A stretch of DNA of 64,000 nt, from contig NZ_JAJQXA010000009.1 in assembly GCF_021245985.1 (NCBI RefSeq), forward strand, positions 132,383 to 196,382, given 5' to 3'. The translations under genes and the position numbers were made by a program. The stretch is from Flavobacterium soyae. Lineage in GTDB: Bacteria > Bacteroidota > Bacteroidia > Flavobacteriales > Flavobacteriaceae. The notes under the pieces were generated by a model. It made no database searches and had not been told where the DNA came from. It worked only from the letters and a program-made list of their open reading frames with translations. Shown here in pieces: positions 45,465 to 61,800 of the stretch. Position 1 is the first letter of the stretch. Every line of letters begins with the position of its first letter.

Positions 45465-46064
45465 ATGACTTTAAAGAATCAAGTTGAGGCGCAGCTGCCT
45501 ACTGATTGGGGAATTTTTAAGATTATGGCGTATTCTGAGGATGCAGATGATTGGATGCCGCATATTGTTTTAGTGCATGAAAAGACTGATTTTAATAAAC
45601 CGGTTGCAGTTCGTTTACACTCAGAATGTTTGACCGGAGATATTTTCCATTCTTTAAAATGTGAATGTGGTAAACAGCTGCATGTTGCTATGGATTATTT
45701 TAGCAGCAATGGTGGTATTTTGATTTATTTGCGTCAGGAAGGACGCAATATTGGAATTATTAATAAGCTTAAAGCATATAAACTTCAGGAGGAAGGTAAG
45801 GATACTGTAGAGGCTAATCTGGCACTTGGATTGTCAGCAGATGGACGCTCTTTTGATGAGGCTATAGCTATTTTGGAAGATTTGGGTGTGAAATCTATCG
45901 TGCTTTTGACAAATAATCCTGAAAAAATGAAGGCCTTTGAAGATTCCAATGTGGTATTGGTAGATTGTATTCCCATTGAGATAAAATCAACAAAAGAAAG
46001 TGAAAGTTACCTGCGTACAAAAAAAGATTTTTTCAAGCATTTTCTGAATTTGGATACTGTTTAA
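45465..46064 (+). CDS. ribA: GTP cyclohydrolase II
   Basis: 199 residues, the size of stand-alone RibA. The zinc site is complete in HSECLTGDIFHSLKCECG (three cysteines), LIYLRQEGRNIGIINKLKAY holds the catalytic tyrosine and arginine, and DTVEANLALGL and LLTNNPEKM are conserved. It opens GTP to the 2,5-diamino-6-ribosylamino-pyrimidinone phosphate, the first riboflavin step. It lacks the RibB domain, and no riboflavin genes (ribB, ribE, ribH) are near. It heads a co-directional run of lipid and glycan genes, so it probably feeds a specialised product rather than riboflavin. Confidence 0.93.
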   Translation: MTLKNQVEAQLPTDWGIFKIMAYSEDADDWMPHIVLVHEKTDFNKPVAVRLHSECLTGDIFHSLKCECGKQLHVAMDYFSSNGGILIYLRQEGRNIGIINKLKAYKLQEEGKDTVEANLALGLSADGRSFDEAIAILEDLGVKSIVLLTNNPEKMKAFEDSNVVLVDCIPIEIKSTKESESYLRTKKDFFKHFLNLDTV

Positions 46065-46074
46065 TAATGGTATT

Positions 46075-46773
46075 TTGAACGTATATGTATTTGATTTTAT
46101 GAAAAGAAAAGGATTTACGGTCGACTGGTTGTTTTATCACTCGGTTTTTATTTTGATTGGGTTGTTTATTGACGTGGTCAATGGGATCGTATGTTTTTCT
46201 CCTATCGCTGGTGCTTTGGTTTTTTCGATCTTTCTGACTAAAAACTGGTCTGGATTTACAGAAAAGAAATACTGGGGTGGTGTGCCTAATGTTGTGACAT
46301 TATTTAGGCTGATACTGCTTTTTACGGCGCCATTTATCATGGATGATCGTTTAAATATAGCTGTTTTGGGTACTGCTTTTGTAATGCTGGATGGTCTTGA
46401 TGGCTTTTTGGCGAGACGGCTTGATCAGATTACGCATTTTGGAGGGATGCTTGATATGGAAGCTGATGCTTTTTTCTGTTTGATGTTTTCGTTGTTGATC
46501 GGATTAGAACATCCAGAAATGCGATGGGTTTTGGCTGCAGGAGGTATGCGGTATTTTTATAAAATTATTACGACAGTATGGAATAGAAAAGTTTTTGCAG
46601 AGGAAAAACAGAAGTATGCCCGTTTTTTTGCAGGTTGTTATTTTGTTAGTCTGGTGTTGTTTTTTTATGTGGATTTTTCATTTGGGAAATATATTGCAGC
46701 GATTGGTAACGGGTTCGTTCTGTTTTCGTTTTTAATTTCGTTTTTACATTTTTTTAAAAAAGGAAGCGCGTGA
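46075..46773 (+). CDS. CDP-alcohol phosphatidyltransferase family protein
   Basis: 232 residues from TTG; an in-frame ATG at 46099 is an alternative start that removes eight residues. The protein is polytopic, and the family motif DG-x2-AR-x8-G-x3-D-x3-D is complete (DGFLARRLD, then GGMLDMEAD, around residues 108-131). Such enzymes move a phospho-alcohol from a CDP-linked donor to another alcohol in the membrane (as in PgsA or CDP-inositol enzymes). The partners here are unknown. It lies 10 nt after the RibA gene and overlaps the next gene by 4 bp. Confidence 0.9.
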   Translation: MNVYVFDFMKRKGFTVDWLFYHSVFILIGLFIDVVNGIVCFSPIAGALVFSIFLTKNWSGFTEKKYWGGVPNVVTLFRLILLFTAPFIMDDRLNIAVLGTAFVMLDGLDGFLARRLDQITHFGGMLDMEADAFFCLMFSLLIGLEHPEMRWVLAAGGMRYFYKIITTVWNRKVFAEEKQKYARFFAGCYFVSLVLFFYVDFSFGKYIAAIGNGFVLFSFLISFLHFFKKGSA

Positions 46774-47741
46774 TTATTGTTTTAACATCTGACATTTGTA
46801 AAAAAATTAGCGGCGGAACAGTTTACAATACGAAGCTTTTTGAATTTTTAACAGCAAAAGGCCGCACGGCAGCAGTTGATGTTGTATCAGATATTAATGG
46901 ATATGATTTTAGAGATGATGTATCCTATATAATTGATGGTATTTTGATTGATAAAAAACTGAATGTGACTAGATTAAAGGGCTTTAAGATTTGTTTTTTG
47001 ATCCATCTTTGGCCTTCTGTAAATGGTTTGCAGGTTAATAATAGTTTAATTAAGGTTGAGAAGTCGATTTGTGAGACATTTATGACTTTAGTTACGGGAA
47101 TGGGCTCATTAGATTATATAAATAATATCATACAGCCTGCAGCCAAAACATGCTGCTTAATTGAACCGGGTATTGATAGTGGTTGGAAGACGAAAGATAG
47201 CTTTAAAGAAAAACCACAGAAAATAGTTTATCTGGCTAATTTTATTGAAGGTAAGGGGCATACTAAACTTTTAGAGCTTGTTAAAAAGTTGAGATATTTA
47301 GATTTCAAGGTAGACTGTTTCGGCGAAATACTTTCAAAACCTTATTTTTTGGAGCTTGTAAGTGAAGTTGAACGTTGTGAATTAGTGAATATTACTTTTA
47401 ATAATGCTGTACCGCACGAGCATATAAATGAATTGCTTTTAGAATATGATCTGATGCTGCATTTTTCGGATTATGAAAGTTATGGCATGGGGATTATGGA
47501 AGCACTTTGTGCACATTTACCTTGTATAATTACACCTACAGGTAATTTTAAAAAATATCAGTCTACTGGTATTCAAGGTGTTTTGAATTCATTTGATGTG
47601 AGTGAAATGACAGATACTGTAAAAGATGTTCTAAATTCTCCGGCCATGTATTTACAATTGATACAATCTGTAAAAGGGTTAAATATGCAAAGCTGGGAGA
47701 CTAATTTTGAATTGTTTTTAAGTAAAATAGAAGAGCTATGA
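46770..47741 (+). CDS. Family GT4-like glycosyltransferase
   Basis: 323 residues starting at GTG in a 4-bp overlap. There are two Rossmann-like halves. The C-terminal half has IVYLANFIEGKGHTKLLELV and the donor-binding region LHFSDYESYGMGIMEALCAH, which matches the E-x7-E pattern of GT4 retaining transferases. There is no signal peptide or membrane helix, so it acts on the cytoplasmic side. Sugar donor and acceptor are unknown. It is coupled to both neighbours by 4-bp overlaps. Confidence 0.85.
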   Translation: MIIVLTSDICKKISGGTVYNTKLFEFLTAKGRTAAVDVVSDINGYDFRDDVSYIIDGILIDKKLNVTRLKGFKICFLIHLWPSVNGLQVNNSLIKVEKSICETFMTLVTGMGSLDYINNIIQPAAKTCCLIEPGIDSGWKTKDSFKEKPQKIVYLANFIEGKGHTKLLELVKKLRYLDFKVDCFGEILSKPYFLELVSEVERCELVNITFNNAVPHEHINELLLEYDLMLHFSDYESYGMGIMEALCAHLPCIITPTGNFKKYQSTGIQGVLNSFDVSEMTDTVKDVLNSPAMYLQLIQSVKGLNMQSWETNFELFLSKIEEL

Positions 47742-48364
47742 TAATTTTTGCATTTGTGTTTGGGTATCTTAGTTTACTTGTTGAGCTGATATTTTTTCAT
47801 GTGCCAAGTGTAGCAAATACACAGAATTTTTTCAAAAAAAATAATAATTACGAGGTTGATGAAAGTGAATATATTACTAAAATCTATAAATGGGCGATGT
47901 GGAAAAAAATTATGATTTTGGCGGTGCCGTTCTTTTTTATAAATATTTACTTTTTACTGCCTTTTTTATATTTTTTTCCGAATCTCCATGAAAATAAATG
48001 GCTGGTTTTTGAAACGAATAATTGGCTGATTATTATCGGTACACTTTGTGTAATTGCAGGCAGATTGATAACATTTGGCTCTATGTTATATATGCGAAAA
48101 GAAAATAAACAAATACAAAATAGTTTTAAACTGCATGTAAGCGGCATTTTTAATTATTCCCGAAATCCGGGATTAGATGGTATGTTTTTGTTTTTTACCG
48201 GATTTGGCATTTTGTTTCCAAGCTTTTTAATTTGGGGAGGATTGATATTATATTTCTTTTATATGCGATTTAGAGTAAAAATTGAAGAGGAATTTCTGAA
48301 GAAATTATTTAAGGAAGAATATTTGGATTATATTACTAGAACGAAACGTTTTTTATTATTTTAA
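47738..48364 (+). CDS. Isoprenylcysteine carboxyl methyltransferase-like membrane protein
   Basis: 208 residues with four or five transmembrane helices. The C-terminal block GIFNYSRNPGLDGMFLFFTG followed by EEEFLKKLFKEEYLDYITRT matches the ICMT/PEMT family pattern (RNP, then EE and the EY-xx-Y segment), which binds SAM and methylates membrane-embedded substrates. This suggests methylation of a lipid or prenyl-linked group. The ATG overlaps the previous stop (ATGA), and the stop adjoins the next ATG. Confidence 0.8.
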   Translation: MIIFAFVFGYLSLLVELIFFHVPSVANTQNFFKKNNNYEVDESEYITKIYKWAMWKKIMILAVPFFFINIYFLLPFLYFFPNLHENKWLVFETNNWLIIIGTLCVIAGRLITFGSMLYMRKENKQIQNSFKLHVSGIFNYSRNPGLDGMFLFFTGFGILFPSFLIWGGLILYFFYMRFRVKIEEEFLKKLFKEEYLDYITRTKRFLLF

Positions 48365-49069
48365 ATGGAAAAAATGATTGATAATCAGCAGCAAACTATT
48401 AAAACATGGTTTGATAAAACGTATTTAACAAGAGGTGAAATGTATCTTCGACCAAAAGAGGCGTATTATATTTTTGCTGAACTGCTTCAGATTAAACCTG
48501 ATGCAAAGTTTCTCGATGTTGCTTGTGGATTGGGCAGAATGTTAGAAATAGGATTAGACTATAAAGCAGAATGCAGCGGTGTTGATATTTCTAGCGTGGC
48601 AGTAGAAAAAGCAAAATTGAAACTGCCGGATGCCGTAATTGTAGAAGCTAATGCCGAAGCTCTGCCTTTTGCTGATAACATGTTTGATTTTGTTACCTGT
48701 CTGGGATCTTTAGAACGAATGCTTGATAAAGATAAAGTGTTACAAGATATTAAAAGAGTTACAACTGCTGATTCCAGAATTTGTTTTATGGTAAGGAATT
48801 CTAATTCCTGGCGCTGGCTGTTTACTAAGAAACTTTTTTTTGCAGTTAATAAAAAAGGACATCAGGACGCAAAAAATTATCAGCAATGGAAAGCTTTATT
48901 TGAGCAGCAACAGCTTGAAATTGTAAGTTGTATTCCAGATCAATGGCCAATAATGCGTATATTACAGATTTTAACTTTTGGCAAATTTAATGGTTACAAA
49001 AACAAACAAAACAGTTTTACACCATTACAATATGCTAATGAATTTATTTTCATATTGAAAAAGAATTAA
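48365..49069 (+). CDS. Class I SAM-dependent methyltransferase (first of two)
   Basis: 234 residues. The SAM motif I is FLDVACGLGRMLEIG near residue 45, followed by CSGVDISSVAVEKAK, ANAEALPFADNMFDFVTCLG (motif II/post-I region) and a strand ICFMVRNS. This is the UbiE-like Methyltransf_11 layout. The soluble protein starts right at the stop of the ICMT-like gene. The substrate is unknown, and the context points to the product of this cluster. Confidence 0.9.
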   Translation: MEKMIDNQQQTIKTWFDKTYLTRGEMYLRPKEAYYIFAELLQIKPDAKFLDVACGLGRMLEIGLDYKAECSGVDISSVAVEKAKLKLPDAVIVEANAEALPFADNMFDFVTCLGSLERMLDKDKVLQDIKRVTTADSRICFMVRNSNSWRWLFTKKLFFAVNKKGHQDAKNYQQWKALFEQQQLEIVSCIPDQWPIMRILQILTFGKFNGYKNKQNSFTPLQYANEFIFILKKN

Positions 49070-49070
49070 C

Positions 49071-49844
49071 TTGAATACACCAACCGACATAACGCAATTA
49101 TATAATGCTCTTTTTCAAATTGAAGCTAAACTAAAATCCGCAGGTGAATATCCAATTCATAAGCGGTTAGACTTTGGGGGAGCGTTTACTGATATTTATG
49201 AATTTTTGGTTTCGAAAATAGATATAAAAAATAAACATATCTTAGATGCTGGCTGCGGCGTGGGCTTTGGCAGCTTGCTTTTTGCAAAAAACAATGCTGC
49301 TAAAATCACCGGAATCAGTGTTAGTGATTTAGAAATAGAAAGTGCTGATCGCAATAAAAATAAATATCATTTTGACAATGTTGATTTTAAAGTCAGCAAT
49401 TTTGAAAATACTGAATCTTGTAATTACGATTTAATTTTTTGTGTTGAATCACTTAAACATTCCTTAGACTTTGATAAAGATTTTAATGCATTATTAAATG
49501 GATTAAAGCCGAATGGTAAGTTAGTCATTGTTGATGATTTTTTTGAAGGTAAAATTACAACAGCAGCATGTGAGGCTTTTATGGACGATTGGAATTTAAA
49601 CTTTTTATTTGCATTGTCTCATTTCTCTGGCATGCCGCATAAATTTACGCTAGAAATAGAAGATTTAACACATTTCATGCCTAAAAAATCTTTATTTAAA
49701 ATCAACATGCAGCTTCTGTTTTTTAAATTATTAAAGCGTAAGTCAATGCTTAAAAAGCTTTTTAAAGGGGGATTGTTACTTGATAAATTGTATGCTAAAA
49801 AAGCAATGAAATATCAATTAATCATAATAGCAAAGCAAGAATGA
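49071..49844 (+). CDS. Class I SAM-dependent methyltransferase (second of two)
   Basis: 257 residues from TTG, 2 nt after the preceding stop. Motif I is ILDAGCGVGFGSLLFAK near residue 55, then ITGISVSDLEIESADRNK and YDLIFCVESLKHSLDFDKD. It resembles the gamma-tocopherol/UbiE-like group rather than the first methyltransferase, so the two are not recent duplicates. The last part is basic and hydrophobic, which may help membrane contact. It overlaps the flippase gene by 4 bp. Confidence 0.88.
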   Translation: MNTPTDITQLYNALFQIEAKLKSAGEYPIHKRLDFGGAFTDIYEFLVSKIDIKNKHILDAGCGVGFGSLLFAKNNAAKITGISVSDLEIESADRNKNKYHFDNVDFKVSNFENTESCNYDLIFCVESLKHSLDFDKDFNALLNGLKPNGKLVIVDDFFEGKITTAACEAFMDDWNLNFLFALSHFSGMPHKFTLEIEDLTHFMPKKSLFKINMQLLFFKLLKRKSMLKKLFKGGLLLDKLYAKKAMKYQLIIIAKQE

Positions 49845-51256
49845 AGCATACATTAATATATACGTTTTTAGGTATTCTGCCGCCAATTATTAGTTTTGTT
49901 TTATTGCCTGTGTTTTTAAAATACCTGACTACAAATGAGTATGCAATATTGTCAATATCCAATGCTTTTTTTGCAGTATTTTCTATAATTTTAAACTTAA
50001 AAGTAGATCAGGCGTTTAGACATATTTATTTTTTCGAACCGGATAATATGTCTAAACAGCTGGCATTGTTTAGGAGTTTGTTTAATTTTCAGATTATTAT
50101 TTTTTGTTTCTGGACACTCGTTATGTATCTGTGCGGCGATCTGTTCTTTCATTTAGCTTTTAAAAACAATTTTTCGTTTTTTCCTTATACTTTTATAATG
50201 ATGTTATCGCTGTTTGTCAGCATGTTAAATGGCTTCTATTTTCTCTATTTGCAGAATAAATTTGAAGCTAAGAAGTATAGCTTATATTTTATTGTCAATA
50301 TTTTACTTACACCAACCTTGCAGTTATTATGTATAAAAATATTTAAATTAGGGTTTTTATGGTTTTTGTTTTCGTCGCTTTGTGCTAACCTGATTATGCT
50401 TTTGTTGATTATTTTTAATAACAGGCAGCTTTTTAAAATTGAATTTTCAAAACCAGTTATTAAAGAAGCACTTCTGTTTTCGTTACCATTTATTCCGTTT
50501 TTGATATTATATAATTTAGAAAATCAATTAGACAGATTTTTTATAGAGAAGTTTTTGACACTTGAAGATTTGGTGCGTTATTCAGTTTTGTTAAGCATTT
50601 CAAGTACTATTTTTATATTGTTTAATAGTCTGGATAATGCAATAAGACCGGAATTATTTTCGATACTTTCTAAAAAAATGGATGGTTTTGAATTGTTAAT
50701 TCAGGAAAAAATGGATTTTTATCTTTTAATTGGTCTTATGGTATTAAGCTTTTTATCAGCTTTTGGCATAAATATTCATTGGTTTTTAAATCATCCAAAA
50801 TACAATGGTATAAGTTTATATTTTCCGATAGTAGCCCTTGCATTTTTGCCGTTAATTTTATTGCGTTTTTTAGGACTGATTTTAATGTATGAAAACAAAA
50901 TTAAAAAGATTAATTATTTTGCAGCTGGTAAAATAGTATTGATGGCAATTCTGTTTTATTTTTTAATACCTCTGCTGAAAATTAATGGTGCGCTAATGAC
51001 GATTGGAATTTCAAATTTGTTGAATGTTTGTGTTTTTTACAAGATTATTCAAGCAAAAATACTTCCCGGTCGAAAGATATATTTTTATGTCAGCCTATTT
51101 GTATTATTAAATAGTGTGATATTATTTTTGGATAAATCAACACTTGCACCTACGATAGCTATTTTTCAATTTGGTCTTTTTGTTTTGATATTTCTGATGA
51201 AATATCAAAAAGAATTAAGAAAACAATGGCAACCATATAAAAATAATTTAACATGA
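49841..51256 (+). CDS. Wzx-like oligosaccharide/lipid flippase
   Basis: 471 residues with about twelve to fourteen transmembrane helices from the first residues (TLIYTFLGILPPIISFVLLP) to the end. The pattern matches the polysaccharide-synthesis flippases of the MOP superfamily, which turn lipid-linked products to the outer face of the inner membrane. Its presence argues that the cluster product is lipid-linked and exported. 4-bp overlaps occur at both ends. Confidence 0.88.
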   Translation: MKHTLIYTFLGILPPIISFVLLPVFLKYLTTNEYAILSISNAFFAVFSIILNLKVDQAFRHIYFFEPDNMSKQLALFRSLFNFQIIIFCFWTLVMYLCGDLFFHLAFKNNFSFFPYTFIMMLSLFVSMLNGFYFLYLQNKFEAKKYSLYFIVNILLTPTLQLLCIKIFKLGFLWFLFSSLCANLIMLLLIIFNNRQLFKIEFSKPVIKEALLFSLPFIPFLILYNLENQLDRFFIEKFLTLEDLVRYSVLLSISSTIFILFNSLDNAIRPELFSILSKKMDGFELLIQEKMDFYLLIGLMVLSFLSAFGINIHWFLNHPKYNGISLYFPIVALAFLPLILLRFLGLILMYENKIKKINYFAAGKIVLMAILFYFLIPLLKINGALMTIGISNLLNVCVFYKIIQAKILPGRKIYFYVSLFVLLNSVILFLDKSTLAPTIAIFQFGLFVLIFLMKYQKELRKQWQPYKNNLT

Positions 51257-52146
51257 AAGTTAAGCCTGCCTATTGGGATTTGTTATTAAATATAAAAGAA
51301 ACCTATCAAAGCATTGATGTATCAACAGAAACGCTGAGCATTACTTATGAATATAATGTAATAAAAAGTACAGATTCATCTTTGTCAGAATATCTGGCAG
51401 TTATTTGTTTTTATCCTGATAAAGAAAAAGAAGCTTTTTTTAAAGTTTTATATAGTGAGACTTTTCCAAAACAGCTAAAAAATGTTTTTAACTTGTATTT
51501 GGACTATATATTAGTAAACAAACATTCTAAAATACCTTTCACCTGTGTTCACGTGGCACAAACTATTGATGGTAAAATTGCGACCATGTCCAGAAAATCC
51601 AAATGGATTGGCAATCAGGAAAACTTAATTCATAACCACCGAATAAGAGCACTGGTTGACGCAATACTTATTGGTGGTAATACATTTAGGATTGATAGAC
51701 CGAAGCTGGATGTGAGGCATGTAAAAGGCAAGAACCCTATTAAAGCCATAATTGCAAATTCACCTTTGGAACTTGAAGATTTAACACCGGGCAAAACATA
51801 CCTTTTTAGCTGTAAAAACTTGTCCTATAATCATATGCCTCCCAATGTAGAAGTAGTTAATATTAGTGATGGAACTGAGTGTATACCTATAAGATCATTA
51901 TTAGAAGTTTTGAAACAAAATGGTGTACATTCTGTTCTTGTAGAAGGAGGAGCTTTAACGATTAGAAGATTTATTGAAGATAAAATGCTGTCAAGAATAG
52001 AATTTCATATTGCCCCAATGTTATTTGGTTCAGGTAAAAATGGAATTGAATTGCAGGAAATTCAAGATTTAAACGAGGCAATATGTTTAAATAATCCAAA
52101 GTATTATAATATAGGAAATGCTATCATGATAGTTTCAAATTTATAA
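51253..52146 (+). CDS. RibD C-terminal-type reductase with novel N-terminal extension
   Basis: 297 residues. From about residue 95 it is a RibD-C / dihydrofolate-reductase-like domain: CVHVAQTIDGKIATMSRKSK, ALVDAILIGGNTFRIDRP, SVLVEGGALTIRRFIEDK and APMLFGSG. In riboflavin synthesis this domain reduces the ribosyl chain of the RibA product to ribityl with NADPH. The deaminase domain of RibD is missing. In its place is an N-terminal part of about 90 residues I do not recognise. With the RibA gene in the same operon, it could act on the RibA product. Confidence 0.88.
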   Translation: MKVKPAYWDLLLNIKETYQSIDVSTETLSITYEYNVIKSTDSSLSEYLAVICFYPDKEKEAFFKVLYSETFPKQLKNVFNLYLDYILVNKHSKIPFTCVHVAQTIDGKIATMSRKSKWIGNQENLIHNHRIRALVDAILIGGNTFRIDRPKLDVRHVKGKNPIKAIIANSPLELEDLTPGKTYLFSCKNLSYNHMPPNVEVVNISDGTECIPIRSLLEVLKQNGVHSVLVEGGALTIRRFIEDKMLSRIEFHIAPMLFGSGKNGIELQEIQDLNEAICLNNPKYYNIGNAIMIVSNL

Positions 52147-52149
52147 TTT

Positions 52150-53097
52150 ATGAGAGTAAAGGCATTTTGGCATAACGATAAAAACACATCAGAAATAAAA
52201 ACTGAACAGCTTAATTTTAGTAATATAAATCAAGCTGTTACAATGCACGCCAGGTATTCTTCAATAAGTATAGGTACAGAAAAACTCGTTGCTAACGGCG
52301 AAATACCCCTAGATCTTTATACTAAAATGAAAGTGAATTACATGGGAGGGAGTTTTGATTTTCCTATAAAATATGGCTATTCATTAGTGGGAGAAACTGA
52401 TGACCATAGATGGGCGCATGTCATGCACCCGCATCAAGATCAAATTATTGTTAATGATGATGATTGTTATTTTTTCTCTCAGGAAGACATAGATCCTGTT
52501 GCCGCTACCCAGTTTTCTAATCTCGAAACCGTAATTAATGCCATTTGGACATCTAAAGTAAAACAAACAGATATTGTTTTAGTTTGTGGTACCGGAAGCG
52601 TTGGTATTTTATTGGCTCAAACAATAAAAAAATATATTGGAGCGACAGTATTTGTTCAGGAAATAAATCCGGTAAAAAAAGAAAAATTAAAAGACTTTGG
52701 GTTTGATTTATGTGCAGATAACCTCGAATATGATATTACATTTAATGTGTCAGCCAATCAAAAAGGGTTGCAATATTGTATCGATCATACAGTTGAAGAA
52801 GGTAAAATAATAGAGTTAAGCTGGTACGGAAACAACCCTGTTTTGCTGCAATTAGGTGGAAATTTTCATTATAAAAGACTGCAGATTATTAGTTCGCAGG
52901 TATCTTCAATACCACATGAGAAAAAAGAGGTTTATAACTTTTTGACTCGAAAACAATTAGTAGAACATTTATTAAAAACTATTGATTATAAGGTTTTTAT
53001 ATCGAACACAATTCTCTTCGATGAACTCCCTCTTTATTTTGATCAAATTAGAAAAAACAAACCTAATGAAGACTTCATAACTATAGTAAAATATTAA
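52150..53097 (+). CDS. Medium-chain dehydrogenase/reductase (zinc-binding alcohol dehydrogenase-like)
   Basis: 315 residues. The N-terminal GroES-like half has SISIGTEKLV, FPIKYGYSLVG and HVMHPHQDQ. The nucleotide half has LVCGTGSVGILLAQTIKKYI (Rossmann GxGxxG) from about residue 145. The structural four-cysteine zinc lobe is not visible. The layout resembles the BchC-type branch of the superfamily. It should oxidise or reduce an alcohol in the cluster's pathway. It begins 4 nt after the RibD-C gene. Confidence 0.83.
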   Translation: MRVKAFWHNDKNTSEIKTEQLNFSNINQAVTMHARYSSISIGTEKLVANGEIPLDLYTKMKVNYMGGSFDFPIKYGYSLVGETDDHRWAHVMHPHQDQIIVNDDDCYFFSQEDIDPVAATQFSNLETVINAIWTSKVKQTDIVLVCGTGSVGILLAQTIKKYIGATVFVQEINPVKKEKLKDFGFDLCADNLEYDITFNVSANQKGLQYCIDHTVEEGKIIELSWYGNNPVLLQLGGNFHYKRLQIISSQVSSIPHEKKEVYNFLTRKQLVEHLLKTIDYKVFISNTILFDELPLYFDQIRKNKPNEDFITIVKY

Positions 53098-53112
53098 CCC
53101 AAACATAAAAAT

Positions 53113-53487
53113 ATGTATTTTGTAAAAATTAGAGAAAGCATGATGATTGCCCATTCCTTAAAACATCCTTTTTTTGGACCGGCACAAAATGTTCATGGAG
53201 CAACGTTTGTAGTAGACGTAACATTTAAAACCACAAGCCTTGACAAACATAATGTTGTAATTGATATTGGCTTGGCGCATAAAGTAGTAAAAGAGATATT
53301 GTCAAAACTTGATTATCAAAATTTAGATGATTTGGATATTTTTAAAGGTAAACTTACCACCACAGAGTTTATAGCCCGATATGTCTATGATGAAGTCAGT
53401 TTAAATGTAAAATCTTATTTTGAAGGTAAAATCAGCGTTTCAATAAAAGAAAACCCCAATGCCTGGGCTGGCTTTGAAGAGAATTAA
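53113..53487 (+). CDS. 6-pyruvoyl-tetrahydropterin synthase/QueD family protein
   Basis: 124 residues, the normal length of the family. IAHSLKHPFFGPAQNVHGAT followed by FVVDVTFK is the T-fold start, VIDIGLAHKVVKEI the central helix, and TTEFIARYVYDEV the conserved C-terminal glutamate helix. Of the usual three zinc histidines, the first (AHSL) and the one in VHGA remain, but the second of HxH (normally HGHNY) is alanine. The activity may therefore differ from QueD or PTPS. The family acts on pterin triphosphates derived from GTP. Confidence 0.82.
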   Translation: MYFVKIRESMMIAHSLKHPFFGPAQNVHGATFVVDVTFKTTSLDKHNVVIDIGLAHKVVKEILSKLDYQNLDDLDIFKGKLTTTEFIARYVYDEVSLNVKSYFEGKISVSIKENPNAWAGFEEN

Positions 53488-53525
53488 TACAACGACAGGC
53501 CTTAAAAGTCATAATAAACAATAAT

Positions 53526-55220
53526 ATGATCGCAGTTACTATTTATTTATTCCTTAATTTTTTGCTATTTGTTCCTTTGTATTTTTTCAATAAAGAAACT
53601 TCTACCTTTTTGCCTATAGATCAAATTTTCGGGCAAAAAAGCTTGCGATTAGCAAGGGCAGCATTATTTGGACGAATGAATAAAGACATATTTCGACTAA
53701 ACATAGAGTTCGCAATAGTTATACTTTTATTGTCAATATTGAAAAATTATATTAATTTTCAATATGTAGCTGTTCCATATCAAATATATTACATACTTAC
53801 CTTAATTGTGTTTTACTATCACTATAGTATTTATGGTATTTACAACACTTTTCCTGCGATTAGTTCTGATTTTAAGCTCATTATAGAAGGTTTAAAAATT
53901 GCATGGGCCGGCTATAAAAAACAATTACTACTTGGTATTGGTGTTTTTTTAATTTTATTAGTTCTTATTATTAAGTTAAACACCATAATGCTTGCACAAA
54001 TTCAAAATACGAATGTCATAATATTACAGATACTCGCATCGATTATTGTATTCATACCACTTAGACACTTTTTTTTTCGCCGTATAAACTATATTTATTT
54101 GCAGACAGAGGGCGGTTTTGAACACTATTCAGGTATGGGAATTCAGGCTCTTTCATTTTTAATTAGTTCTAATGTCTTTTTTAGTAAAAAAGCAAAGAAC
54201 GAGATAGCTTTAATACCTCAGATTTATAACAAAACTCAGCTTATATTATCGAAAGATCAAACACTAAAGCAAAGCCCTAATATTTATTTTATAGCCCTGG
54301 AATCCTACGGAGCCATTTTATACGAAAACGAAGCCTATACCCAGCCGTACATTCAACTATTGGAAACCATGGACCAAAAAATTCAAAGTGACCAATGGCA
54401 CGCGGCAAGTTTCTTATCAAATTCACCTGTAAGCGGTGGCGGCTCATGGATGGCATTTTTTTCCGTTCTCAAAGGCATACAAATAAAAACAGATTCCCTT
54501 TACCGTAAATTAGCCCAGCTAAGGGATAAATATCCTGTGCAATCCGTTTTCACGGTATTAAGAAAATTTCAATACAACACTTTCCTGGTTTCAGGAATTG
54601 GAGGGTTTGAAAATTTAAAAGTGCCATGGAAAGAAATTTTAGAATTTGCAGATGTACAAGATGTCGTTACCCACAAAGATCTCAATTATACAGGTCCGTC
54701 GTTTATTTTTGAGTCAGCACCAGATCAGTACTTTCTCAATCGGTCAATTCAAATTATGAAAGAAAAAAACCAGGGTAAGCCTCTCTCTTTTTTTGTAGAA
54801 ACTCTCAATTCTCATTACGATTTTTATACCCCCACAGTACTCCTGGATCAATGGGAAGATTGTAATACCACTTCTTTAGAACATTATAAACCAACTGATC
54901 CAAAAAACAATAATAAAGAGAATTACTTTGAAGCCATTAAATATCAATTAATGACCATTGAAAACTTAATTTTAAACGAGTCGCAGGATACTATTTTTGT
55001 CATTTTCGGAGATCACCAGCCGCCGATGATAACAACTGATCAAAACTCGTTCAAAACCCCTGTACATATCATTTCAAAAAACAAAGATTTTATTACATTA
55101 TGGCATCAAAAAGAATTTTCAAAGAGCCTCGTCATCGACACTGAGAAAACACCAATCGTCCATCATCACGAATTAAAAAACTTATTTCTAGAATGTTTTT
55201 TGAAGCAATATTCAGTATAA
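53526..55220 (+). CDS. LTA-synthase/sulfatase-type membrane transferase
   Basis: 564 residues. About five transmembrane helices in the first 210 residues are followed by an extracytoplasmic alkaline-phosphatase-superfamily domain. YFIALESYGA supplies the first metal ligand, SPVSGGGSWMAFFSV the likely serine nucleophile region, and FVIFGDHQPPM the Asp-His pair. This is the layout of lipoteichoic-acid synthases and phosphoethanolamine transferases, which move a phospho-alcohol from a phospholipid to an outside acceptor. As last gene of the run it may release or transfer the exported product. A terminator follows. Confidence 0.85.
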   Translation: MIAVTIYLFLNFLLFVPLYFFNKETSTFLPIDQIFGQKSLRLARAALFGRMNKDIFRLNIEFAIVILLLSILKNYINFQYVAVPYQIYYILTLIVFYYHYSIYGIYNTFPAISSDFKLIIEGLKIAWAGYKKQLLLGIGVFLILLVLIIKLNTIMLAQIQNTNVIILQILASIIVFIPLRHFFFRRINYIYLQTEGGFEHYSGMGIQALSFLISSNVFFSKKAKNEIALIPQIYNKTQLILSKDQTLKQSPNIYFIALESYGAILYENEAYTQPYIQLLETMDQKIQSDQWHAASFLSNSPVSGGGSWMAFFSVLKGIQIKTDSLYRKLAQLRDKYPVQSVFTVLRKFQYNTFLVSGIGGFENLKVPWKEILEFADVQDVVTHKDLNYTGPSFIFESAPDQYFLNRSIQIMKEKNQGKPLSFFVETLNSHYDFYTPTVLLDQWEDCNTTSLEHYKPTDPKNNNKENYFEAIKYQLMTIENLILNESQDTIFVIFGDHQPPMITTDQNSFKTPVHIISKNKDFITLWHQKEFSKSLVIDTEKTPIVHHHELKNLFLECFLKQYSV

Positions 55221-55276: not shown

Positions 55277-55306
55277 AAAAACCTATTTCGTAACGAAATA
55301 GGTTTT
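55277..55306 (+). terminator. Terminator of the pterin/flavin-like cluster
   Basis: AAAACCTATTTCG pairs with CGAAATAGGTTTT around TAA and runs into T6. Confidence 0.85.
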
Positions 55307-55368
55307 TTCATGTCTTTTTTAGATTCTATAAAAATTTTAAAAGGAAGAATAATTGTATCTTACTTAGG

Positions 55369-55392
55369 ATCTTCAAATCTTCAAATCTTCAA
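55369..55392 (+). repeat. ATCTTCAA tandem repeat, 3 copies
   Basis: The 8-bp unit ATCTTCAA is repeated three times in a row without change in the spacer after the cluster. Confidence 0.8.
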
Positions 55393-55544
55393 ATAAATGG
55401 TTCGAACTCTGTAACCATCACGGGTGCAAAAAAAGTAAAAAGCCCGTAAAATATTGATTTCACAGTTTTTCTCCATACTACTTACATTCTGAATGTTTAG
55501 CGTATGCGGAGAGACGTTCAAATTAATTGCTTAGACCTATGATG

Positions 55545-55700
55545 TTATAGGCTCGCAATTTTTAAAATAGATGCAAAAAATAGTATAATAGTATAAGAAA
55601 TAATTAACAAATGGGCAGATTTTAATTTCTTTCCCTTCCAGGTTAAATTTGTGCTGCCTTTTTTACTACCCCGAATGTCTTTTTTCTCTAGCTGATTCAT
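55545..55700 (-). CDS. Possible 51-residue single-pass membrane protein
   Basis: An ATG at 55700 opens a frame to TAA at 55545. It has a basic start (MNQLEKKDIRGSKKG, then WKGKKLKSA) and one hydrophobic helix (HLLIISYTIILFFASILKI) near the end. The positive-inside layout is convincing for a small membrane protein. It is 192 nt downstream of the kup stop on the same strand and could be co-transcribed with it. I know no family for it. Chance occurrence in a 671-nt spacer cannot be excluded. Confidence 0.45.
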   Translation of the reverse strand: MNQLEKKDIRGSKKGSTNLTWKGKKLKSAHLLIISYTIILFFASILKIASL

Positions 55701-55891
55701 AATGATTTAGGTTTTTCAGGATAATAACAAACATAGTACCTTTAATTTGCTTGTATTCTAAATAACTCATTATCAATGGTTTATTTTTTCGGATAATTTT
55801 CTGTTACCAAATAAATACTATCAAAATGATAATATGTTTCTCAAAATGAATGGTTTAAGAGGAAAGACTAAATTAATTTTCGATATAATCC

Positions 55892-57865
55892 TCAGATATT
55901 TGCTGGATGCTTTGTGGAAGATTTTCTTTTTAATTTAGAACCTTTATGAAGAGTTACAACTAATGGATATTTTTCTATTATAAGATTACTTTGATCCAAA
56001 CCAAAATTAATTTCTTCTTTTACTGCCAAATATTTTAAATTGTAGTAGCTTTTCATAATAAAATTTTTCCAAAACGGCATATTGTTATCATAAGACAAAA
56101 AGCTGTCCCTTACAACAAATTTAAAATCTCCTATAGAGGAAGAGTGTTTGTATTTGAACTCATTACTTTCCTGAAGATTAACTTCTTTATTTTTAATCAT
56201 TTCTTTTACCACTTCTCTAAAGAATAAATCAAGCCGTGGTTCTTCGCGAAATCCTAAATCAAAGTTTATAAAGTATATATCATCTTTTACAATTGTATCA
56301 ATCTCATAATTTACTCCATAAGGTTCGTCCAGAACATTGACATGAACAAACCAATAATTGTCTGCGCGTTTTGGAGTACCATAATTAAATATAGAATTTA
56401 TTAAGTTTTTCTCCAGTTTGTGCAGGCTTTTTGAATAGGTGAGAAATACAATATTAGTTGCATATTTTGGGATACTGGTATCTGTGCTTAATTGTTGGAG
56501 TGAAGGGAGATAATTTGCTATATCTGTGAACTCCATGAGTGCAGATTTTGTATTCTGGCCTTTCCACCAAATGTACATAATTATGAAAAGCGTAAATCCA
56601 ATAACTAACGTAATCCATCCGCCTTCACCAATTTTTTGAAGATTGGCAATAAGAAAACTAAATTCGATGCAGACAAAGAGTGAAGTAATGAGTATTACCC
56701 AGACTATCGGTACTCTTTTAGCGCGTAAGTAATAATAAATTAGTAGGGTGCTCATAATCATGGTAAGCGTTACACTTAATCCAAATGCAGCTTCCATTTT
56801 GGTGCTTTCCTTAAAATGGAGCACCATAAAAACACAACCGATCATTAAAAGCCAGTTTATGGCAGGAATATAAAGCTGTCCTTTAATGTTTCCTGGAAAT
56901 AACACTTTATGCCTTGGCCATAAACCAAGACGAATAGCTTCATTAATCAAAGTAAAGCAGCCGCTGATCAGGGCTTGTGAGGCAATAATAGTAGCGGCTG
57001 TAGCAATAATCAATGAAAGCCAGAATATTTCCTGAGGAACGATATGATAAAATGGACTAACATTGCCAATAGTTTCTCCTACATGCCCCATAAGCCATGC
57101 GGTTTGTCCGGCATAACATAAAATAAGTGCTATTTTTATAAAAACCCAGCTGATACGTATGTTGTTTCTGCCGCAATGCCCCATATCACTATAAAGTGCT
57201 TCTGCTCCGGTAGTACATAAAAAGATGCTTCCTAAAAGCCAAAAACCTTTTGGTTCAAGAACTAACATTTTATATGCATAATATGGGTTTAGAGCTTTTA
57301 ATACAGCAAAATTTTCACTTAAGGAAATGGCTCCGATTACGGCAATAAAACCAAACCAAACTACCATTGCAGGCCCAAAAACTTTACCAATTTTATCTGT
57401 ACCAAATTGCTGGAATATAAAGAGACCAATTAAAATTCCAATAATTACAGGTACGGTATTAAAGCCGGGAATAACATTCTGTACTCCCTCAATAGCCGAT
57501 GCAACAGATATTGGAGGAGTAATAATACCATCAGCCATTAAGAATGCACCTCCGGCCATAGCAGGAAAAATAAGCCATTTTCCCCAGTATCTTCTTATTA
57601 GAGCATATAGAGATAAAATACCTCCTTCACCATTATTATCTGCCTGCAGTGTTATAATGACATATTTTAGGGTTGTCTGAAAAAAAAGGGTCCAAAAAAT
57701 ACAGCTTAAACTCCCGAGAGCTATGCTTTCAGTAATGATACGGTTATGAAAAACGGCATTGAGTGTATATAGGGGTGAGGTTCCAATGTCTCCAAAGACA
57801 ATTCCTATAGCAATAAGTGAACCTGCGAAGGTTATTCTTTGGTGAAAAGTGGCTGTATTGTGCAT
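55892..57865 (-). CDS. kup: KUP/HAK/KT family potassium uptake protein
   Basis: 657 residues. Twelve or so transmembrane helices include the conserved start AIGIVFGDIGTSPLYTLNAV, ADNNGEGGILSLYAL and ALYSDMGHCGR. A cytoplasmic C-terminal part of about 190 residues follows, with YFINFDLGFREEPRLDLFFR typical of the family. Kup proteins import K+ driven by protons. The length is close to the usual 620-660. It is monocistronic or linked to the small ORF downstream. Confidence 0.94.
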   Translation of the reverse strand: MHNTATFHQRITFAGSLIAIGIVFGDIGTSPLYTLNAVFHNRIITESIALGSLSCIFWTLFFQTTLKYVIITLQADNNGEGGILSLYALIRRYWGKWLIFPAMAGGAFLMADGIITPPISVASAIEGVQNVIPGFNTVPVIIGILIGLFIFQQFGTDKIGKVFGPAMVVWFGFIAVIGAISLSENFAVLKALNPYYAYKMLVLEPKGFWLLGSIFLCTTGAEALYSDMGHCGRNNIRISWVFIKIALILCYAGQTAWLMGHVGETIGNVSPFYHIVPQEIFWLSLIIATAATIIASQALISGCFTLINEAIRLGLWPRHKVLFPGNIKGQLYIPAINWLLMIGCVFMVLHFKESTKMEAAFGLSVTLTMIMSTLLIYYYLRAKRVPIVWVILITSLFVCIEFSFLIANLQKIGEGGWITLVIGFTLFIIMYIWWKGQNTKSALMEFTDIANYLPSLQQLSTDTSIPKYATNIVFLTYSKSLHKLEKNLINSIFNYGTPKRADNYWFVHVNVLDEPYGVNYEIDTIVKDDIYFINFDLGFREEPRLDLFFREVVKEMIKNKEVNLQESNEFKYKHSSSIGDFKFVVRDSFLSYDNNMPFWKNFIMKSYYNLKYLAVKEEINFGLDQSNLIIEKYPLVVTLHKGSKLKRKSSTKHPANI

Positions 57866-57934
57866 TGATGGTTTTTATTCAAAAATAATAATTTTAACTA
57901 AAAACATTGAACTTTAATTAAATAATATAAAGAC

Positions 57935-58050
57935 TTGCTGTTAAAAATAATAGTTATATTGCAAATTCAGGTGATAATTGATCACTCATTTCCAATAAAA
58001 AGTGATTAAACATGTACATACATAAACTCGCACCAGTAGTGCGAGTTTTT
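57935..58050 (+). ncRNA. Candidate orphan small RNA with intrinsic terminator
   Basis: TTG at 57935 and the near-consensus TTATATTG at 57954-57961 look like a promoter. A stem GTGAT-AATTG-ATCAC follows at about 57971-57985, and the perfect hairpin ACTCGCAC-CAGTA-GTGCGAGT with T5 closes at 58025-58050. On the plus strand there is no gene before this terminator, so a transcript of about 80-85 nt is suggested. It lies between two leftward genes (kup and the barrel protein). Confidence 0.4.
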
Positions 58051-58148
58051 AATTAAGAAATTTGGATTTAGTTTGTTTAAATCTAATGACATATATTGAA
58101 AATCAAGTGTTTTTCTTTTCATACCACCTCTGAGAGTTTGCTTATATT

Positions 58149-58850: not shown

Positions 58851-61800
58851 TTATTTTTTAATAATCTTGGCGGTATATTTTTTGCCTTGTACACTGCACT
58901 CTAAAACATAAACTCCGTGGCTTAGTGCGCTCACATTTATGTTAGAAGGAATATTCGCATATGCTTTACTAAACACAGTTTTACCATCTGTGGTGTAAAT
59001 TTTGATTTGTGTTTCTCCTTCAGCCTTATCTGCTAAAAAGATATTTAGGTTATCTATAACAGGATTAGGAAATGCTCTAAACGTTTTTGTTATTTTGCCC
59101 AGCATCATACCTTTTGAATCAAATGGTGCTGATATTGTACTGCTGCAGCCGTTCGTATTAGTAATTTGCAGGCTGTAATTTCCTTCCCAAATTGTAATAA
59201 TTGATTTTTGGGTTGCATTTGGTATTGGTCTGTCGTTCAAATACCATTGGTATGAAGCTGCTTCGACTGAAGCGGTTAGTTTTTTTTCACCCACAACCAT
59301 AATTTCTGGTATAATATTGTTTTCGAGAACAGAAATAGTAGTATTGAATATTTTACCAATACCATTTTCATTGTAAACCGTTACATAATAATTACCGCTT
59401 TCTGTTGTAGTATATGTAGGTTCTGTTGAGCCGTCAAACCATTCGTATGATTTGTAATTTCCTGGAGATAAAACAACTTCTGGACCGCATACATTACCAC
59501 TTACTAATTCAGATTCAAAAGTGTCGAATACTGCAGTTATGGTTCCTGTCAAGGTACATCCGTTTTCCATTACGGCGGTTACAGTATAATCTCCTGCTTT
59601 ACTTATTTCTATACCGTTTGTGGTTTCTCCTGTGCTCCATTGATAAGAAAGGACATCTAATTTCTTACTGTTAAAATTAATTCCTGAATCAATGTATAAG
59701 CTTTTACCTGCGTACCCATATATAACGGGGTTGTCAAATATTTTAAAATCTGATGATACTTCCTGATAGATATAATTCTTTACTTCATTATTGTACTGAA
59801 TAAGGTCATTCTCTAATTTTGCTATAACATTAAAAACGTGAGAATTGCCGCTTGTATCGAGCTTAGGCTGTTTTTTGAAAATATATTCTATACTTTGACC
59901 AACCGGAATTGCAACGTTAATAGATTCTGAAATGGCTTCATCTGTATTAGCATATTCTAAATCTAATTGAATAGCGTTTTCTTTTATTGCAATTTGTCCC
60001 TCGTTAGTCAGCTTAACTTTAAATTCAGACCCGCCGCAAATATCCCTAGGTGACAGAATTTGAACAGATACATCTAAAAGAGGGTCGTTAATTACTTTTA
60101 AGTCATCAAAAACCATATAAGAATATCCGGCTGCTTTAGCATGTCTAAATCTAAACATTACAGATTTTCCCGCATATTTATGTAAGTTCACAGTTCCTTT
60201 TTGCCACTCCATATCAGCATAAATTCCTTGTTTAGTAATTCTCCATATTTCCTGCCATTCACCTCCAGTTGTTTTAATATCAACAATAAGTGCATTGTGA
60301 TAATTACTTTGCATAGCATAATAAAATTCTAAAGCTGTTGCTTTGTCAGATAAGGTATATAATGGCGTTATCAATTCTCCATAAGTCGAATAATTTTCTA
60401 ACTGATTATATAGCATAGTTGCAGCAGCATCGCCGGTATGGTCTTTTTTAGGGAGTGATAAATAGGTGTTATCAGGCTGAACAACTGCTCGCCACGGATA
60501 ATTTTCATCACTTTGATTAGAAACAAATCCTTTTGATCCAAACAGGCTGCCTTGAGATACATTAGAAAAAGGTTCAAAATCTAAATTTGGTGTTTTTGCG
60601 ATAACTTGAAACGCTTGTGTAAGACTTTCTGCTTTTTCTTTTGTTTGCCCGTTTCCAAATAATTTTACCGTAATCTCATAATTTCCTGCCGGCAGTTCTG
60701 GCAGACCATTTATTTGATAAGCAATTGTTTGATATTGCAATAAATTAGCATTTCTTTCTGATACAATTGGTTCTCCTATCGCTTTACCATTTTGTGTAAT
60801 CTGGTATTCGATAGTAATTTTATCAACTACATTGTAAAATAAATTTTTGGCACTTATAAAAAATTGGTGCGACGGTACATCTTGATATACGTTTTCTGCC
60901 ACGCTTAAGTTAGACAACTGCAAATATTCGGCTTTATCCTTAATTTGAATATTATCTACAGCAAAACCGCTGGCAAACAATCCATTGTCATCATGCTGAA
61001 ATGCTACAAGAACACAAGGATTTCCTGCATACGCACTTAAATCTACCTGATATTCTATCCAATTATTGATATAAGGCATTTGAAATATAGTTTTCCAATT
61101 TTTACCTCCATCTGTACTTACTTTTACATATCCATCAGAAAGTCCTGCACCATCACCAAAACCATCAAATGTTAAATGTGCTTCTTTATAATTGCTTAAG
61201 TCAAACACAGGAGAAATCAACATATCGTTTGATGAGTCACAATTACATTTATCGTCATTGCTGGCCATAAAATATGTATGCTCTTTGATACGCCATCCCG
61301 GAGAATCTAGATCAGTATTTGTTCCATGTTTCCAGCCGCCGCCGTTTTTGTTCTCAGAAGTTCTCCATCCTTTGTATTTAGAAGCATCTTCAAAATCCAT
61401 TATGTACGGAAGAACAGATACTTTCATATCGGCATTACTCCAATTATCATAATCAAAAGTAGTCGTGTTATTATCCGGTTTAATGTCCTTACTCTCGGGA
61501 TCAGGAAAAACAGAAACTGAAATGGTATTTTGTCCTATATTTTTCAAATTAATATTTGGCATAGAGTAGGTTATCGTATCTCTGAATTTAGCAAAAACTA
61601 ATTTGGCTTTTTCAGTTTTAGAAAAGACTTCTTTTTGTTCACTATCCAATATTTTTACAGTAACATTTACCAGTTCATTTGTTGTTGCAAAATTATTAAT
61701 GATTTGAGCTTTTATAGTAGCATTATCATTGGTAATAGTACAAGTTCCGGCATCTATGTTTGCAGTAATAAGTTCTAAATCATAAGGGGCATTACCTACA

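Follow-up and report, generated by a model that had tools for sequence, protein, structure and literature searches.

Which molecule would a flavobacterium build when enzymes that open GTP are encoded in one operon with enzymes of lipid and envelope synthesis? The question is raised by eleven genes at positions 45465-55220 of a stretch of Flavobacterium soyae DNA (the window, meaning the whole 64,000-nt stretch, within which all positions are counted), and we consider it somewhat probable that they encode, in its lipid-coupled form and with the steps proposed below, a GTP-derived pathway that is widely conserved but has no description so far; we call it the PTPS-IV pathway. A sequence-only reading of the window had described eleven same-strand genes that overlap by 4 bp or nearly touch, and the coordinates of the reading frames agree with it: all genes lie on the + strand, with four overlaps of 4 bp and remaining gaps of 0-38 bp. 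The families it had named for all eleven products are backed by Pfam and NCBIfam, with weak Pfam support for the MDR dehydrogenase and the flippase.

45465-46064, + strand: RibA, GTP cyclohydrolase II, 199 aa, second copy in the genome (PF00925, 188 bits; TIGR00505 above cut-off)
46075-46773, + strand: CDP-alcohol phosphotransferase (CDP-OH PT), PgsA/PIP-synthase-like (PF01066, 55 bits; motif; AlphaFold model)
46770-47741, + strand: GT4 glycosyltransferase (PF00534, 68 bits)
47738-48364, + strand: ICMT/PEMT-like membrane methyltransferase (PF04191, 38 bits; weak LmtA match)
48365-49069, + strand: S-adenosylmethionine-dependent methyltransferase MT1 (PF08241, 64 bits)
49071-49844, + strand: S-adenosylmethionine-dependent methyltransferase MT2 (PF13847, 60 bits)
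49841-51256, + strand: Wzx-like (MOP) flippase (PF13440, 25 bits, cut-off 23)
51253-52146, + strand: RibD-C reductase without deaminase domain (PF01872, 103 bits)
52150-53097, + strand: MDR dehydrogenase without catalytic zinc ligands (PF00107, 24 bits, below cut-off; NCBIfam BchC-like and PDB MDR matches)
53113-53487, + strand: PTPS-IV (FGPAQ subfamily) T-fold protein (PF01242, 89 bits)
53526-55220, + strand: LtaS/EptA-like (LTAS) extracytoplasmic head-group transferase (PF00884, 29 bits)
55277-55307, no strand assigned: bidirectional terminator-like hairpin at the operon end (14-bp inverted repeat; T-rich tail on both strands)

The GTP-derived core

Aligned to 2bz0, RibA retains the three zinc-binding Cys and the catalytic Tyr105 (E. 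coli numbering), as characteristic for GTP cyclohydrolase II. The best solved relatives of RibD-C include the reductases of 2,5-diamino-6-ribosylamino-pyrimidinone 5'-phosphate (DARPP) and ARPP, 2azn and 6p8c, and Pfam has shown no deaminase domain in it, as had been claimed. The conversion of GTP to DARPP and further to a ribityl-diaminopyrimidine is established chemistry of these enzyme families, and since the operon encodes no RibD deaminase, the 2-amino group would be retained. Whether a separate riboflavin set exists elsewhere in the genome had been left as a check, and most of it has been found, namely a second PF00925 protein (a two-domain RibBA), a RibD that is complete and has the deaminase motif, and RibH, while RibE was not searched for. 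The RibA and RibD-C of the operon are thus additional copies, the concern that this RibA might be the housekeeping enzyme falls away, and a dedicated GTP-derived pathway is supported. Indeed, no deaminase, RibB, RibE or RibH has been detected among the eleven genes with Pfam and NCBIfam, which separates them from riboflavin operons, and likewise the lack of PF01227 (GTP cyclohydrolase I, GCH I) and of an SDR among them separates them from tetrahydrobiopterin and pterin-glycoside clusters. GCH I is encoded on another contig, and two further PTPS proteins are present in the genome besides the operon copy.

Residues 21-25 of the operon PTPS read FGPAQ, the motif of the PTPS-IV subfamily of COG0720 (PMC5445326), and GPAQ has been found in 78/83 aligned PTPS sequences. 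The family profile matches the solved member SCO6650 (3d7j) with 216 bits. Across the 78 PTPS-IV members, the catalytic Cys is always replaced by Ala (Ala24 in the operon protein), the third zinc His by Ala (Ala30) in 77 and the catalytic His by Tyr in 73, and Glu113, the anchor of the pterin 2-amino group, is kept in every one. The operon protein accordingly lacks the catalytic Cys or Glu together with three zinc His that define canonical PTPS, QueD and PTPS-III. Judged from these residues, the protein very likely acts on a 2-amino-4-oxo pyrimidine or a pterin, with a chemistry that would differ from that of the known PTPS types. The structure paper on SCO6650 is said to have found no zinc. 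A PTPS variant with Glu at the place of the Cys and an intact HSH zinc motif has been observed with the same neighbours in haloarchaeal loci and in some loci of the window's phylum (L034-L037, L044).

The MDR protein has retained the nucleotide-binding motif GxGxxG, and GTE, PH and SW are near-invariant, but GHE is changed to GY and no Cys occupies the first ligand site, so that it does not belong to the zinc-dependent MDR alcohol dehydrogenases. As PF00107 scores below the cut-off, its identity is based on NCBIfam BchC-like matches and on MDR chains in the PDB, e.g., sorbitol dehydrogenase and threonine dehydrogenase.

A scan of one genome per species, covering 84,980 species, has revealed at least 588 genome stretches that encode a PTPS-IV relative. 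All locus counts given here refer to 81 loci of at least 14 kb from several bacterial phyla and haloarchaea; these were located via PTPS or MDR, and the counts of MDR (80) and PTPS (79) are therefore not independent. GT4 is present in 73 of them, a core methyltransferase in 62, RibD-C in 51, RibA in 39, CDP-OH PT in 33, an LPG_TM flippase in 23, LTAS in 21, a creatininase in 12 and Wzx in 4. The neighbourhood search that had been suggested thus yields a recurring MDR-PTPS-GT4-methyltransferase core, accompanied by RibD-C and a GTP cyclohydrolase, and by family the operon GT4 matches the core GT4 found in the other loci (75 bits). In 7 loci of the window's own phylum and of Actinomycetota, RibA and RibD-C are fused with RibA in front, and such fusions in two distant groups are as expected for consecutive steps. 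The first enzyme itself has been found in three versions. Haloarchaeal loci encode GTP cyclohydrolase III (GCH III; PF05165, 276 bits) in place of RibA, in a gene that overlaps that of the MDR, and Streptomyces and Amycolatopsis loci combine a RibA carrying Met at the place of Tyr105 with a creatininase-family (ArfB-like) protein. The Met-type RibA of Streptomyces presumably halts at the formyl intermediate, and archaeal ArfB, which belongs to the creatininase family, takes the formyl group off; all three versions (GCH II, GCH III, Met-RibA with creatininase) would converge on DARPP.

The same core occurs on plasmid records of Rhizobiaceae, Rhodobacterales, Chromatiaceae, Microbacterium, Streptomyces and haloarchaea, and PTPS-IV is encoded in 88/150 sampled genomes (0.7-1.6 Mb) of the order to which a Pelagibacteraceae locus belongs. 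Closer to the window, the whole eleven-gene block is found in a sister genome with protein identities of 89-98% and in Flavobacterium piscinae in identical order; a third genome has retained all 11 genes in changed order, and an uncultured member of the Flavobacteriaceae (L048) as well as a Gammaproteobacterium (L055) carry 10 of the genes, reshuffled. A strong PTPS-IV match has been obtained in only 4/299 sampled genomes of the genus. A grouping by chance in this one strain, which had been named as a possible refutation, is rejected in view of the block conserved in relatives, its eleven genes still together after reshuffling, and the core in distant taxa.

The lipid branch

The motif D-x2-D-G-x2-A-R-x8-G-x3-D-x3-D is invariant across 25 homologues of the CDP-OH PT and identifies it as a CDP-alcohol phosphotransferase. 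As sequence searches of the PDB with this protein and with LTAS gave no matches, structure models were built for both. The AlphaFold model of the CDP-OH PT (pLDDT 89.5) is closest to the phosphatidylglycerophosphate (PGP) synthase 7drk (Z 14.8, root-mean-square deviation 2.6 over 158), followed by phosphatidylinositol phosphate (PIP) synthases (Z 12.3), choline phosphotransferase (9.9) and phosphatidylserine synthase (9.7). PGP and PIP synthases use phosphorylated acceptors, and the nearness of the model to them fits a ribityl- or pterin-phosphate. For LTAS, E259, S307, H430, D496 and H497 are invariant in 18 homologues, and its model is nearest to LtaP (4uop), LtaS, MCR-1, BcsG and GacH, all of which remove the phospho-head group from a phospholipid. 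With its metal ligands, Thr/Ser nucleophile and modelled fold, LTAS has the features of the LtaS/EptA type, and head-group transfer is predicted for it. The ICMT/PEMT-like protein weakly matches LmtA, a lipid A phosphate methyltransferase.

These genes are tied to each other as well as to the core. Among loci that encode the CDP-OH PT, 27/33 also have a flippase, versus 0/48 among those that lack it (P=5e-16); for LTAS the counts are 21/33 and 0/48 (P=3e-11). When the loci are dereplicated at 60% MDR identity, the flippase remains in 14/17 versus 0/19 (P=2e-7) and LTAS in 10/17 versus 0/19. In other phyla, the place of Wzx is occupied by an LPG_synthase_TM protein (PF03706), so that two unrelated types of flippase interchange. 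On the MDR tree, in which one row (L123) is a mispicked paralogue, the lipid-gene trait changes at least 5 times, and single inheritance is therefore insufficient to explain the co-occurrence. In nine core genomes without lipid genes, such a CDP-OH PT is absent genome-wide (best match 19-56 bits, versus 246-251 in controls), from which soluble and lipid-coupled versions of the pathway follow; in Catalimonadaceae the CDP-OH PT is present, outside the fetched stretch of the locus. The attachment to a lipid, flipping and transfer that the sequence-only reading had placed at the centre thus hold for the linkage of CDP-OH PT, flippase and LTAS with the core, but not as a general property of it: since the core also occurs without lipid genes, e.g., in SAR11, lipid coupling is an optional add-on branch of some lineages. 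SAR11-type loci (L082, L090, L096, L098, L099, L103, L105, L118) show the order creatininase-MDR-PTPS-GT4-methyltransferase-RibD-C-RibA.

Proposed product and competing readings

In the proposed PTPS-IV pathway, RibA would open GTP to DARPP and RibD-C would reduce its ribosyl to a ribityl chain, the 2-amino group staying in place for want of a deaminase. The zinc-less MDR would then oxidise an alcohol of the side chain, most plausibly at C2' of the ribityl, and the C2' ketone may cyclise with the 5-amino group, yielding a reduced pterin; this closure is proposed because such a ketone has the skeleton that also arises from the Amadori rearrangement in GCH I. PTPS-IV would bind the 2-amino-4-oxo ring and assist ring closure or a rearrangement of the side chain, GT4 would glycosylate the product and methyltransferases would decorate it. 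In the lineage of the window, the PgsA-like CDP-OH PT would couple the product, in phosphorylated form, with CDP-diacylglycerol; the lipid formed would be flipped by the Wzx-like protein, and the LtaS/EptA-like enzyme would pass its phospho-head group on to an extracellular acceptor. Ring closure, step order, lipid attachment site and final acceptor are inferred; for attachment, flipping and transfer, the basis is the families of the genes and their joint occurrence.

A ribityl-pyrimidine or pterin head group had been suggested at the outset. A GTP-derived pathway stands, and the kept 2-amino group together with the intact pterin-anchoring Glu of PTPS-IV points, as far as sequences can tell, to a product of the pterin or 2,5-diaminopyrimidine type rather than to the 5-amino-6-ribitylamino-uracil of riboflavin synthesis; of the two heads, the pterin is favoured. 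In a bolder form, which we regard as possible and put forward tentatively, RibA, RibD-C, MDR and PTPS-IV would make a reduced pterin independent of GCH I, which would then be glycosylated. In some lineages this pterin would become the head group of a membrane lipid and be displayed at the cell surface or transferred there, perhaps serving redox chemistry outside the cytoplasm; in most SAR11 it would stay soluble. Rather unlikely in our estimate is a core that stops at a 2,5-diamino-6-ribityl-pyrimidine conjugate with no pterin closure, its ribitol phosphate end joined to a lipid as a surface modification resembling ribitol teichoic acid with a pyrimidine. RibA and RibD-C, going by their families, directly yield a ribityl-pyrimidine phosphate, and a CDP-OH PT of the phosphorylated-acceptor type with an LtaS-like enzyme would suit a polyol phosphate; however, the MDR in nearly every locus would be superfluous for an unmodified ribityl chain, and the retained Glu speaks moderately against it, as it could bind a diaminopyrimidine too.

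Several observations weigh against the PTPS-IV pathway as proposed. Many loci have no RibA or no RibD-C nearby (the genes may be located elsewhere in those genomes), and GCH I is already present in the genome, so that a second route to dihydroneopterin phosphate is not obviously needed. Wzx and LTAS have been assigned on weak Pfam scores, LTAS additionally on a model. Neither MT1 (4.5 bits) nor MT2 (3.2 bits) is orthologous to the core methyltransferase, and both may hence modify something else, e.g., the glycan or the lipid. The structure paper on SCO6650 reportedly saw no PTPS activity. Finally, the pathway has no known product, and its chemistry is predicted from the genes.

That a surface glycolipid or polysaccharide operon has captured unrelated RibA, RibD-C, MDR and PTPS genes appears very unlikely. 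Its GT4, Wzx, LTAS and methyltransferase genes are of kinds typical of the envelope, and the block is distributed patchily across the genus, but the GTP-derived core stands without envelope genes in 48/81 loci and elsewhere with two different flippases, the eleven genes have stayed together through reshuffling, and the same association is found in archaea. Least credible, and rejected as largely refuted, is a duplicated riboflavin branch that feeds flavin or deazaflavin (F420) export, for which RibA and RibD-C as riboflavin enzymes and an unpublished remark in a 2016 review on PTPS-IV in F420 synthesis (PMC5041015) could be cited, since the operon lacks the remaining riboflavin genes, housekeeping RibBA, RibD and RibH lie elsewhere, and no CofH/FbiC FO synthase above cut-off has been found in the genome (best CofH match 24.6 bits, cut-off 374), for which reason the F420 link does not suit this organism.

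That no described pathway has this gene set is largely borne out, as none has been found in the open-access literature (subscription literature may hold one); part of the neighbourhood had been noted in a 2017 network paper, with no function given (PMC5445326, AGeNNT cluster 62). That cluster shares the FGPAQ signature and the neighbours PF00925 and RibD_C, and SCO6650 matches the family profile, but PF00925 was interpreted there as FolE2/GCH I and no pathway was assigned, and the MDR-GT4-methyltransferase core, the RibA-RibD-C fusions, the GCH III version and the lipid module are absent from its text. With the archaeal/fungal-order riboflavin pathway (GCH II/III, ArfB, ArfC/RIB7), the operon has the first two enzymes in common, and some lineages also the creatininase-family protein, whereas deaminase, lumazine synthase and riboflavin synthase are missing and MDR, PTPS-IV, GT4 and methyltransferase are extra. 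A PTPS-fold protein and a glycosyltransferase acting on a probable pterin recall the tetrahydrobiopterin/pterin-glycoside pathway (GCH I, PTPS-II, sepiapterin reductase, glycosyltransferase), but the start is by GCH II/III, the PTPS has lost its Cys and a Zn ligand, an MDR replaces the SDR, and the glycosyltransferase is a GT4. CDP-alcohol phosphotransferase, flippase and LtaS/EptA-type transferase correspond to phospholipid head-group transfer by PgsA and then LtaS, EptA, GacH or BcsG; in LtaS the nucleophile is Thr, whereas the operon enzyme has the invariant Ser307 at its place, and a heterocycle made from GTP would serve as head group.

Surroundings of the operon and biological meaning

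Upstream of the operon lie ftsA-ftsZ-yqeY, and ftsZ-yqeY is kept in relatives where the operon does not adjoin. The sister genome (G370) is without the kup stretch (window 55278-58143) and has ~1.8 kb more between yqeY and RibA. Near the window end, a 1697-aa reading frame (58851-63944) encodes HELTHAVT, a metallopeptidase motif of the thermolysin type, and, at its C terminus, a sorting-like domain. Among the 81 loci, cytochrome b561 (PF01292) has been observed near the core in 22 (L039, L041, L058 and 19 more), in soluble as well as lipid versions, possibly hinting at a redox role, and an MdoH-like family 2 glucosyltransferase adjoins the core in at least 17 alphaproteobacterial loci (L046, L058, L062, L063, L068 and others). 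Other neighbours, when clustered, mostly reflect lineage-specific synteny among the matches listed.

A pathway that spends GTP and is nevertheless kept in the streamlined genomes of SAR11 relatives as well as in Rhizobiales, Actinomycetota, Bacteroidota and haloarchaea must yield something useful. If the proposal is true, it would add a new cofactor-like molecule, probably a way to pterins that bypasses GCH I, and lipid head groups of a new class, and it supplies a hypothesis of function for the orphan structure SCO6650.

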